A stretch of DNA of 64,000 bases, from NCBI GenBank assembly GCA_026929865.2, contig CM049403.1, positions 22,024,501 through 22,088,500 on the forward strand. Reading direction: 5' to 3'. The stretch's first letter is position 1. Every line of letters starts with the position of its first letter. Source of the stretch: Hyperoplus lanceolatus. Taxonomy: Eukaryota > Chordata > Actinopteri > Uranoscopiformes > Ammodytidae. Below, in pieces: positions 12,301 through 27,300 of this stretch. The translations under genes and the position numbers were made by a program. The notes under the pieces were generated by a model, which saw nothing but the letters and a program-made list of their open reading frames with translations, had not been told where the DNA came from and did not search any database.

Positions 12301-15300
12301 TGCCGCCATTTGAAAATAAAAGTATCTTTGAGCGCCTGCTAAGATAAAATGTGATGTTGAAGTCATTATATTGCTATTGATCCACACGACACTGTAAATG
12401 TCATCCCTTAATGGCTGCCTGAAATCACCATGGAACCCAATCAGGTCTAATTTTTTCCAGTAATGGATCGCTATAAACAAGATGACAGGAACACTGGCTG
12501 TATACACACTTATTATTTCATTCGGCATTTGCATTTGCACTCCGAGAATCAAGAAGCAGAGCAGCATCATTTTGAAAAAAAAAAACACAAATGTCACAAA
12601 CAAATGAACCACAAAAAGACGAAAAGTAGGTTCAGGAACAGAACTCAAACCAAAGGAAATCACACAAACACAACACCATAATCACAACACAAAGAAAGAA
12701 CTAAATAAAGGAAAGCCAAAAAAGGGTTGTATCAGGGAAAACACTTGTAGCAAAACCAAAGAAAGAGAAGGAAACAATTGAACATAACAGGAATGCAGAA
12801 AGAAAAAAAATCACGGCCAAAGGGATTTGTGCAGGCATGCAAGCGCAGTTACATTCTCCCATCATGCAACAGGTCCTCTTATTCACACGTGCTGGGTTTC
12901 CATGACAACACGTGCAAGAAAGCCTTTTGGTGCAGAAGCAATACCAAAGGATGCAAAACGAGAAAAGGCCCCACAATGCAAACATAAAAGTAATTAACAA
13001 GACCCGAGCTAATCGGGTTTGCTTTCATCATTTCTTCCTTGGAAATAAAGATACATTTCTTTCATAATCATTTAGCAGTTTGGATTAACTGATTAGTATT
13101 TCTTCAAATTAGTCATGAATCGAGCTCTGTAATAGGCAAATGCAGCTCAAAATTTTCAACATGTTGAATTTTCTTTTTCAAACGTGGGTTAAAAAAAGTA
13201 AAAAAGAAAAAACACACCAACCTTCTCGAAGCTCTGAGGGATGTAAAGGGGTTGATGCAGAACACAATGACATGAGGAGAAGAGAAAAATAGGGGAAACA
13301 CAGAGAGAGTAAAAAAAGCCACCTCAAGGTGTTTAGCTGCAGCTACATTTCCCTTTTCTTTAAGCCTTTTTCCTCCTTTTTTCCTTTGTCTCTGCTATCA
13401 GTGACCCCCATATTGAAAGTACACTTGCCTGCCCCCTCCCACTTAAATAAACTTTGAACCAAAACAATCAGATTTACCCCAGTGGCCACCTAGTCGCCTG
13501 GTAAGAAAAAAAAATTGTGAGGCGCCACTGGAGTCAAATCAAGCGTACCATTCCCATAATTCAAAATTTCACAAGCTCTTTATAGCCACAAGGAGAGGCT
13601 CCTGTGGTGGCCGTATTTGCTTTTGTTAGAGAAGGAAAACCAAATAAAGAAAAAATAAGGAAAAACTAATGAGAGATAGAAAAGAAAAAAACGACACAGT
13701 TTGGGCTGAAATTAGCAGCTGCAGTTTAAGACAGTCAGAGTAAATGTTGTTGCAAGTCAATCAATCAGTAGCACTGTCATACTAGTTTGTGTTTAGTCTC
13801 AGTCTTCCTTGGTACAGCATTACCCAGATAACATGATAGAATGTGTTGTTTACTTTTGCTGGAAATTGACCCCCACCACAGCTGCTAATCTCAAGTGCAT
13901 TTCGCTTTGTGAACAAAACATAGTCAACATCAAGTATCAGAATTGATTGACAAAAGTTAACTGAAAACAGACAAAGGTTGACACCATCAAGGCATAAAAA
14001 GTGTGTTGCATAGTGTGATAGTACCTGAGTAATTATGGCCCTTGTGTAGTACTTTTGAAAGCATGCTGATGGAGCCAGTGTTCATGGAGATTGCATGAAT
14101 TGTTGGAAATGATATCAGGGTATATAGCTGTGTGCTTCTGATCAAAGGAACTAAATATTTGAGCACTGTGTCAACAAAGTGTTCCCCACTATCGTTATTT
14201 AATGATTCCCGTAGAGCTCTTGACTGTAATTTTGCAATGAAACTTTTAATTTATTCCATGCTGTACATGAAAACAGGTGCATAGCCACTTGACATTTGGT
14301 GTCACTGCATCGCTGTGGAGACGGCATGAGCCTCCTAGATAAATGCCGGTAAGAAGAGAGACTAATCTTGATGAACCATGTTTTACCTTCTACTCCTCAC
14401 AGCTGAATTTTTCTTCCCTACACTGCGACTTCACAGGGTGTGATAATAGCAATAATAATGAAAAAGCAGCTCTCTGACCCATTTTATAATGTCAGAGTAC
14501 TGAATTATTTATTGGGAACAAAGTTATTTGGTACACAGCAGAGGGAACAAATTCAGTAGATACCGAGGCATCTTTATTTAATATGCACAATATAAATAAT
14601 GCATGTCGAAAATGCATCTGCTTCAATTTATCAAAGCTCCCTCAACAGGGATTTATTGTCATTTAGAATTAGTGGTAGAGGCTTTTGTCTTCATTGCCTG
14701 TTCCCAATGAAACTCAGCCTTCCCTGTGACTGTTTGTTTTTCATATCTTCACTTTGCCGGAACATGTCAGCCAAAATTACTACTGACTGTAAAAGGCTTT
14801 AAAGATAATAGCCCAAAGCAGAAACAGGGGAATACTATGGATCTATTCTCCCGAACACCATGAAGAAGAAGAAGAAGAAGAAGAAGAAGAAGAAGAAGAA
14901 AAAGAAGCGGAAGTGTTCTATTTATAACCTATGCAGTATACCACCTGACTGTGTTGACAGTCGTTTTCTATTCATTCACCACAATGGAATCCCTTTTACC
15001 ACCATATCTGGAGGAAGCCAAGGGTTTGAGATTTTGATTGGTGGGCATTAATTCCACGCCACTGAATCAAAATCGAGACTTACCGTTTCGCTCCTGTACC
15101 TGAAAAAAAAGTCTAATCAAAAAGAGGTCCTTCCCGACTCCTTTTGAGTACCAGAAGTTTAAAGGCGGGGGTAACATTTTATCGGTGCACTCAGCCACAG
15201 GTAAAAGGCGTCTTACGACTGATAGGGTAAAGACATACGGCTTGTTGTGCTACACAATTCCTTCCGAGTGAGTAGGGGAGGGCATTCAAAGACAAAATGG

Positions 15301-24300: not shown

Positions 24301-27300
24301 CTTAAAATGTGTCCATAAGTATACACTATTGTCAACATACAGTATATCCTACAGTGGTGTGCATGTATTTATAAATAAGGTGTGAATATTTACTTCCATT
24401 AACCATACTTTTATAATAACATTTACAAATGTCCACATTGTTTGATGAAAGTGGAAATGTATTTCTGTGTCAGATCAGTAATATATACTATGTAATCAAT
24501 AAGCAATGCACTTCATGCCTAGATTTTCCACAAAGAGTGTTTAGAGTCATTGAAAAACCAGGCATAACAACAACAACTTTGCTTTAATTTTAAGAGACCA
24601 CATAATCATAGGTTAATCACAAGGCAAAGAACAGTAGGGGTCTGGGAAGGACATTGTTATAGAGTTAGAGTTTGATTAAAGGCTGCAGAAGCAGTTGGTT
24701 TATGTTGCTTTAGCTGTGATGACATTTTTAGTTGGGGTTAAGGGGTTACTAGTTAAAGGTTAGGTGAGGTTAAGGTCAACGTTAGGTTAAGGTTAGGATA
24801 AGGTTAAGGTTAATAAAGCAGGTCTGTTAAGGGAAAGGACATCACATAAGGACCTTTAAAAGGACTGAGTGACAAAAGAATGACAGAAAAAAAGAGAGGA
24901 AAGTCAAAGGATAGATGAGGGGTAATAGTTAGAGGTTGTTTGATTTAAAGGCATTGGTTCAAGAAAAAATATGAAAAATTAAGACCTACGTCATTGGAAC
25001 GGCCAGCCTATATTAATTTCCATTGGCAAATCCACCTGTATTATGGGCACGCAACCTAATGGCCATAAGCTCCCCTGCTAAGCTTTGGTTAGCCAGGGGT
25101 TGATCAGCTTACGGTGACAATGACCTAAATTTACCTCAATAGGCCACTGACCTCCACACATCATCAAATGTGGTATGATTTGCTCCACCGAAGCGTCCAT
25201 CTGTTTTGTTAAACAACCCTCTGTATAATATATTAGAAAAAAAATATTAAAGTATGTAGTCTGTTCAGAGGCAATCTGGCCAGAGATGTTGCCCATCTGC
25301 GTTTGAGCTGGATGAGGTTGGATGATTGGCAGAGTGTAGAAGTCTGACTGCCCTTCCCGAGGGCGTTTGACTGACCTTCTCATTACCATAGACATTTGTC
25401 TGAGATCCTGGTGGTGTCGCAGCAGGTTTCAGAAAAACCTGGCTCTTGCTACCACATCTGCAGAGGACGACCTGGACAGTCTGTGCAGAGGAGCTTTGAT
25501 GCCAACGAATAGCAGTGTTTTTGCACATTTTTGATTTAGTGCAATTGAACTCACCATGGTTCACATTAGAATGTGCATACTGTAAATCTGTATGTAAGAG
25601 CCATACAAGGCCATGATTTGTAACCTTTATATTAAATATGTGCTTAATGTTTATAAAAAATGCACTTCTCCCTAAGCTCTCATTGTCAGCCTAGGCTCTG
25701 GCTAATCTTTTCTGGCTGACAAGGCAGCGAGGGCCCATGGTCTGCAGCCACAGGGACATCAGGAGAAAAATGTCAGGCTCCCACTACACACCTAGAGGAT
25801 CTCTTCAGGGGACCCAGATGCAAATAGCAGTTCCCCGCTAGCACAGCAGGGTCTGGCACATAAGGAACCTGTCAGCCATTTAGCCAGCTATCTAGAAAAA
25901 ATAACTGGAAGGCCTATCTTCCAGTATTGCCTCATGTCGTAGGTGGGAATGATTTAGATCAGTATGCACATTTAAACATTACGCAGAGTAAGTCTGAGGA
26001 GACATGTGGGATTATTCTGAAGGAGATTGACACAGAGTGTGTTTTTGAACTTGTGTTTGCCAGCCGAAACCCCATTTCCTCCTTCTCCTCCCCCAACTCT
26101 TCCCAGAAGTATCTATTTAACCGCTCTCTACAGGAGCGAACCCATTAGTCTCAGAGATATCCCTTGAGCTGTGAGGGCTTGCTTGAACCAAAAGAGCAAA
26201 CAGGTAACCCTCAGGAATTTCCAACAGCAATCTGGTCAACAGAAGAGTAATAGGCTGCTAAAATAACCTTTACATTTGTTCTGTGCATTTATCCGTGAAA
26301 TAAGAATGAGACCCCAAATGGCAACTCGAAGTGCTGAGGACACAAGAAGGCAGCCCAGGGGGCTTGACAGCGCAGGCGTTTTTTCATCAGCATAAATCCT
26401 GCCTGGCTGCAAAAGCAAAAGGGACACAGAAAAAGGGAAATAATCCAAAGCTAACATTCCCTTATGAGAGTCTTGGTATTGAAATAAAGGAAACTAATTT
26501 CCTTTTATGCCCTCCTACATACACATGTAATTTGAACTATAAATAAAATATACCCAATTTCAAGTGGATGGGTATATTTTTGCAAGTATTTCAAAAGGTC
26601 AGGAGGATTACAGAATGTGGCCAAATGGTACACTCAATCACTTGAATCCTCACCATCAAGCATTGGCTAATATCTGAAGCTACAGATATTTAAGGCAGTG
26701 GGGATGTGGGCCAATTAGGCAAGAGTAGAGAATGCTCTCATGTGAAAATATTTGGTCCAGAACAGAGGGTCAACAAAAAGCCCAAGTTTGTGATCGGAGG
26801 GTTGAGCCAAAAAATGCCATAAACCTTGAACTGATGTTTGCCTCCAGAGAGAGAGAGAGAGAGAGACAGAGAGAGAGAGAGAGAGCGAGCGAGAGAGAGA
26901 GTGTGGTGGGGGTGGATTATAAGTGGTGTGGGCGAAACAAAGTAAAAGTTAAGAATAAATAGGGAACAAGTGGCAGAATAGGACGAGGGTGCGGGCAGAG
27001 CAGGGAATGCATGCATTTTGACAGTAGTTTAAATATGCCATCTGCTTCAAGGAGAGTGCGGCTTGCTGCTCTTTGCATGACACTTACCAAAGGTTTCTGA
27101 AAATGACAAAGGAGGAGGAAAATATATAGAAAAAGGGGAAGAACAAAATAGTTCATTTTAGGTTGAGGTTAAAAGTGACTGCCGTGCAAGAATGAAACTA
27201 CAGTTTAGTTGGGTCTTGAGTCCCAGTATTTTAATAATTTTTATTTTATTAATTACCATGCGATACAGTGGAAGGAGAATTTCATTAAATGTGTGTTCAA

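Follow-up and report, generated by a model that had tools for sequence, protein, structure and literature searches.

Probable counterparts of the PTPRS micro-exons meA and meB in Hyperoplus lanceolatus

Micro-exons of the type-IIa receptor phosphatases

Type-IIa (LAR-family) receptor tyrosine phosphatases (RPTPs) carry FN3 domains after three Ig domains, and the family has separate in-frame micro-exons at the Ig2 loop (meA) and in the Ig2-Ig3 linker (meB), which add 3, 6, and 4 residues. Two further micro-exons are described, meC in FN5 and meD close to D1, and LAR carries DQRE at meB (PMC8711739). In PTP delta, meA3, meA6, and meA9 are described together with meB, so that meA has four states and meB two (PMC4423211). 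IL1RAPL1 and IL-1RAcP are reported to be bound by PTP delta, and not by LAR or PTP sigma; binding of IL1RAPL1 depends strongly on meA, and R196 of PTP delta, the final residue of meA9, matters for it (PMC4423211).

For human PTPRS, miniexon A is given as ETFESTPIR after S189 and miniexon B as ELRE after R226 (PMC12643511). Work on RPTP sigma reports that insertion of meB lowers TrkC binding, that meA would sit on the face opposite TrkC, and that the Ig2-Ig3 linker contains RVRR, possibly a furin-like site, which meB would disrupt (PMC4239663). Likewise, meB of PTPRS is said to enable Slitrk binding and to inhibit TrkC binding (PMC8711739), and one paper lists variation at meB alone for PTP sigma (PMC5773591). 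In the mouse brain regions that were studied, meA-containing forms of Ptprs are hardly expressed, the olfactory bulb excepted, yet the meA1+ meA2- form predominates among neurons that project to mPFC, while meB varies by brain region (PMC10883964). The meA1+ meA2- form implies that meA consists of two exons in mouse too.

A minus-strand gene with three micro-exons

The window analyzed here is a 64-kb stretch of Hyperoplus lanceolatus DNA, and its minus strand encodes a type-IIa receptor tyrosine phosphatase from Ig1 through FN3. Eleven exons, running from 53977 to 3179, join into one open frame with consistent phases. They are listed in gene order with the analyses that support each:

53832..53977, minus strand: Ig1, first exon (spliced frame, tblastn)
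50663..50804, minus strand: Ig1, second exon (spliced frame, tblastn)
31064..31252, minus strand: Ig2, first exon, ending ...IKQLRS in phase 1 (spliced frame, tblastn)
27088..27096, minus strand: micro-exon meA1, 9 nt, ETF (borders, frame, chance and splice scoring)
22612..22629, minus strand: micro-exon meA2, 18 nt, EGTPIR (borders, frame, chance and splice scoring)
15597..15707, minus strand: Ig2, second exon, GALQIE...NLYVR (spliced frame, tblastn)
13222..13233, minus strand: micro-exon meB, 12 nt, ELRE, with the weak donor GTTGGT (borders, frame, chance and splice scoring)
5194..5463, minus strand: Ig3 exon (spliced frame, tblastn)
4395..4976, minus strand: FN1-FN2 exon (spliced frame, tblastn)
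3460..3596, minus strand: FN3, first exon (spliced frame, tblastn)
3179..3323, minus strand: FN3, second exon (spliced frame, tblastn)

The spliced frame is open both ways, at 586 complete codons when the micro-exons are included and at 573 when they are left out. When the joined protein was compared with the window by tblastn, all eight larger exons were recovered in order, and a domain search found three I-set stretches and three fn3 stretches in it, the arrangement of the family. Later FN exons were sought with one PTPRD stretch as query, which gave no match at E up to 1, also in the 3.2 kb of the window that lie beyond the FN3 exons, and a search of the window for the signal-peptide exon returned one unconvincing candidate only (61239-61119).

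All three micro-exons are bordered by AG and GT on the minus strand, and the final G of the preceding exon completes the first codon of each. Thus, meA1 (27096-27088, AAACCTTTG) encodes ETF, meA2 (22629-22612, AGGGTACCCCGATTCGAG) encodes EGTPIR, and meB (13233-13222, AGCTTCGAGAAG) encodes ELRE. They are all phase 1-1, and the neighboring borders at 31064, 15707, 15597, and 5463 are exact. A preliminary description of this DNA had proposed three micro-exons with these splice borders, phase, and gene order, and it was right at every position; the borders of the five junctions that it named (31064/27096, 27088/22629, 22612/15707, 15597/13233, and 13222/5463) are exact in the sequence, and its assignment of the exons to LAR-family meA and meB agrees with their peptides, order, and phase. 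It had also called the set complete, which holds for the Ig2 and Ig3 sites and not for the family as a whole, where meC and meD are described as well (PMC8711739); these two were not found in the window, because the identified exons end at FN3.

Since each micro-exon is a multiple of three in length and phase 1-1, all eight combinations preserve the reading frame. Skipping of meB gives ANLYVRVRRV, which contains RVRR, and its inclusion gives ANLYVRELREVRRV, which does not.

Short exons of this kind might be look-alikes that arose by chance, so chance occurrence was estimated from first-order Markov sequence (20 Mb), modeled either on the meA introns or on the meB introns. In the meA-intron model, AG/GT-bordered ETF occurred three times, an expectation of 0.0023 for 15,356 nt, and there was no occurrence of EGTPIR, of any xxTPIR, or of ELRE; in the meB-intron model ETF occurred five times and the others, again, not once. 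In the window itself, on both strands, EGTPIR and ELRE each have one match and ETF has two. The second ETF (AGACTTTTG between AG and GT, 449-457, minus strand) lends the idea of chance some support, and a 9-nt motif by itself can mislead, but its summed splice score is -8.6 versus 13.8 for meA1, and we set it aside as a chance match. Hence, where the preliminary description had treated the same peptides elsewhere as evidence against the set, EGTPIR and ELRE prove unique in the window and ETF alone does not, although ETF with good splice sites is unique.

The exons were also ranked without regard to their peptides, by scoring the splice sites of every open candidate 3-30 nt long and in phase 1-1 within the micro-exons' own introns. 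The site frequencies are textbook values, so that only the ranks count. meA1 (13.8) and meA2 (13.2) came first and second of 430 candidates, the next scoring 8.0, whereas meB (4.6) came third of 283, behind two candidates at 5.6. Thus, splice sites alone would not single out meB, a point in favor of chance. Nevertheless, all three exons lie in the right introns, in the right order, and in the right phase, and the Markov counts and peptide-blind ranks together make a chance origin so unlikely that we reject it.

Among the gene's 11 exons, meA1 ranks second by summed splice score, meA2 fourth, and meB ninth; the meB donor is weak (1.2), and those of the first (0.7) and second (0.3) FN3 exons score lower still. 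These ranks bear on the idea that meA1, meA2, or both have decayed and are no longer spliced in. The near absence of meA+ Ptprs from bulk mouse brain regions would fit such a decay, but the high rank of both exons, their intact frame and peptide, and the predominant use of meA1 in some mouse neurons (PMC10883964) make it unlikely.

The window holds other elements as well. A LINE-like reverse transcriptase relic lies in the Ig1-Ig2 intron (33804-34937, minus strand), with an RVT_1 match (E 4.6e-30) in 34937-34359; its further stretch, 34256-33804, gave no match above the curated cut-off. A 185-residue open frame at 62305-62859, plus strand, looks gag-like by eye, as in retrotransposons, and matches nothing in Pfam at E up to 5. 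Simple repeats lie at 46690-46826, 50900-51066, and 61598-61786: two perfect dinucleotide runs, TG and CA, 137 and 167 bases long, and a tract rich in C and CT. Rfam and tRNA scans of the window gave no hits.

Position among PTPRS, PTPRD, and PTPRF

As measured by column counts and bit scores, the gene is closer to PTPRS than to PTPRD or PTPRF. Among 24 PDB sequences with E up to 1e-60, the best was PTPRS 4pbx_A (E 9.1e-289), which we take to be human. Over 569 columns compared outside the micro-exons, PTPRS matches 432 and PTPRD 390, and the columns exclusive to one paralog number 74 for PTPRS and 32 for PTPRD. For FN1-3, the bit scores are 398.9 (PTPRS), 351.7 (PTPRF), and 348.5 (PTPRD). For Ig1-2 with the inserts removed, PTPRS (412.6) is followed by CRYPalpha1 (407.7), presumably the chicken name for PTPRS, then by the best PTPRD (367.9) and the best PTPRF (340.5). 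If 4pbx is human and CRYPalpha1 chicken, the closeness of their two scores points to an animal outside the amniotes, as a fish would be. The protein also has the residue pair NS where PTPRD has SN, a difference that helps set the TrkC preference of RPTP sigma (PMC4239663).

One may argue that the gene is instead a ptprd or ptprf copy, since Ig3 alone leans to PTPRD (77 of 88 columns, versus 75 for PTPRS) and the G of EGTPIR is common to PTPRD. However, the overall columns and the FN1-3 and Ig1-2 bits favor PTPRS, ETF is the PTPRS peptide (PMC12643511), and ELRE is not that of PTPRF, whose product LAR has DQRE (PMC8711739). PTPRD is therefore rejected on the 569-column counts, both sets of bits, and the PTPRS-type ETF, and PTPRF on both sets of bits and ELRE in place of DQRE; membership in either branch is very improbable. 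We consider it very likely that the window contains, on its minus strand, the Ig1-FN3 part of a vertebrate ptprs (PTP sigma) gene, and that its micro-exons are the counterparts of the two meA exons and of meB of mammalian PTPRS. Zebrafish has two such genes, ptprsa and ptprsb (PMC2933243).

Inclusion, partner choice, and comparison with known micro-exons

The neurons of this animal probably include the exons alternatively. Each micro-exon, in or out, would keep the reading frame; meA would extend the Ig2 loop, and meB the Ig2-Ig3 linker, where it would also break the RVRR that forms on skipping, the same loss that is described for RPTP sigma (PMC4239663). By analogy with mammalian and chicken work, meB inclusion would shift partner choice away from TrkC and toward Slitrks, and cleavage at the linker would perhaps shift too. 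The preliminary description went further, to eight forms that set the choice of partner; four meA by two meB combinations do keep the frame, but the meA code was measured on PTP delta (PMC4423211).

Candidate regulatory motifs add little to this picture. Upstream of meB there is TGC at -26 and TCTCT at -52, -73, and -75, and UCUCU/UGC enhancers are reported before mouse Ptprd meB (PMC13080001). Both motifs are also present at 22 of 179 decoy acceptors and before the first Ig1 exon and the Ig3 exon, whereas meA1 and meA2 do not have both upstream; SRSF11/SRRM4-type motifs thus decide nothing here, and as evidence for meB they were set aside as weak. A TGCATG 73 nt downstream of meA1 was set aside in the same way: among the 11 exons one has the motif in the 300 nt that follow it, and about 0.14 per 300 nt are expected from the 30 on the minus strand.

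A bolder idea is that ptprs meA is used widely in the neurons of this animal, unlike in bulk mouse brain, so that its PTP sigma would have a partner that depends on meA and is little used by mammalian PTP sigma. The splice sites of meA, which are strong, would fit such use, as would two residues of EGTPIR, G and R, that PTP delta has as well. We nonetheless think it improbable, and the contrast with mouse is already reduced by those mouse neurons that do use meA.

Comparison with PTPRD begins with the inserts, which have 3, 6, and 4 residues in the same places as meA3, meA6, and meB. An ungapped alignment of 70 residues spans both insertion sites, to PTP delta chains with ESIGGTPIR and ELRE, in which the G of EGTPIR falls on the second G of GGTPIR and its R on the position of R196. 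The meA peptides differ, ESI and GGTPIR in PTPRD versus ETF and EGTPIR here, with six of nine residues in common, and IL1RAPL1 is bound by PTPRD and reportedly not by PTP sigma (PMC4423211). The view that EGTPIR departs from a mammalian ESTPIR is thus correct with respect to human PTPRS, which has S, and too broad with respect to PTP delta, whose G at the aligned position means that the residue is not new to the family.

In fish, micro-exons of another paralog of the same family are known: zebrafish ptprd-1 (meB) and ptprd-2 (meA) have been deleted and phenotyped (PMC12626420, PMC13281805). The passages on these ptprd deletions name none in ptprs, and a search of main-text passages in the literature brought up no work on ptprs micro-exons in fish; EGTPIR occurs in none of the nine papers that contain any of six words of this kind. 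The preliminary description also expected the exons to be missing from automatic annotation. Among zebrafish brain micro-exons, 23.8% of 1882 are missing from Ensembl, and among conserved ones 16.1% of 402 are absent, the largest share being neuronal (PMC7821500). Most of the conserved set was thus annotated there, which makes that expectation too strong as a rule.

The closest known system is mammalian PTPRS, on the same branch and with the same insertion points. The meB peptide is identical, and meA is alike in eight of nine residues, ETFEGTPIR here and ETFESTPIR in human (PMC12643511), the one difference being G for S. PTPRS meA1, meA2, and meB are thereby placed in Hyperoplus lanceolatus, where they retain their frame and order and share 12 of 13 residues with human PTPRS; for two of the three, splice signals and phase would suffice to find them. 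Current knowledge of how meA and meB act is unchanged; as the micro-exons match ones known from mammals, the find is real but ordinary.
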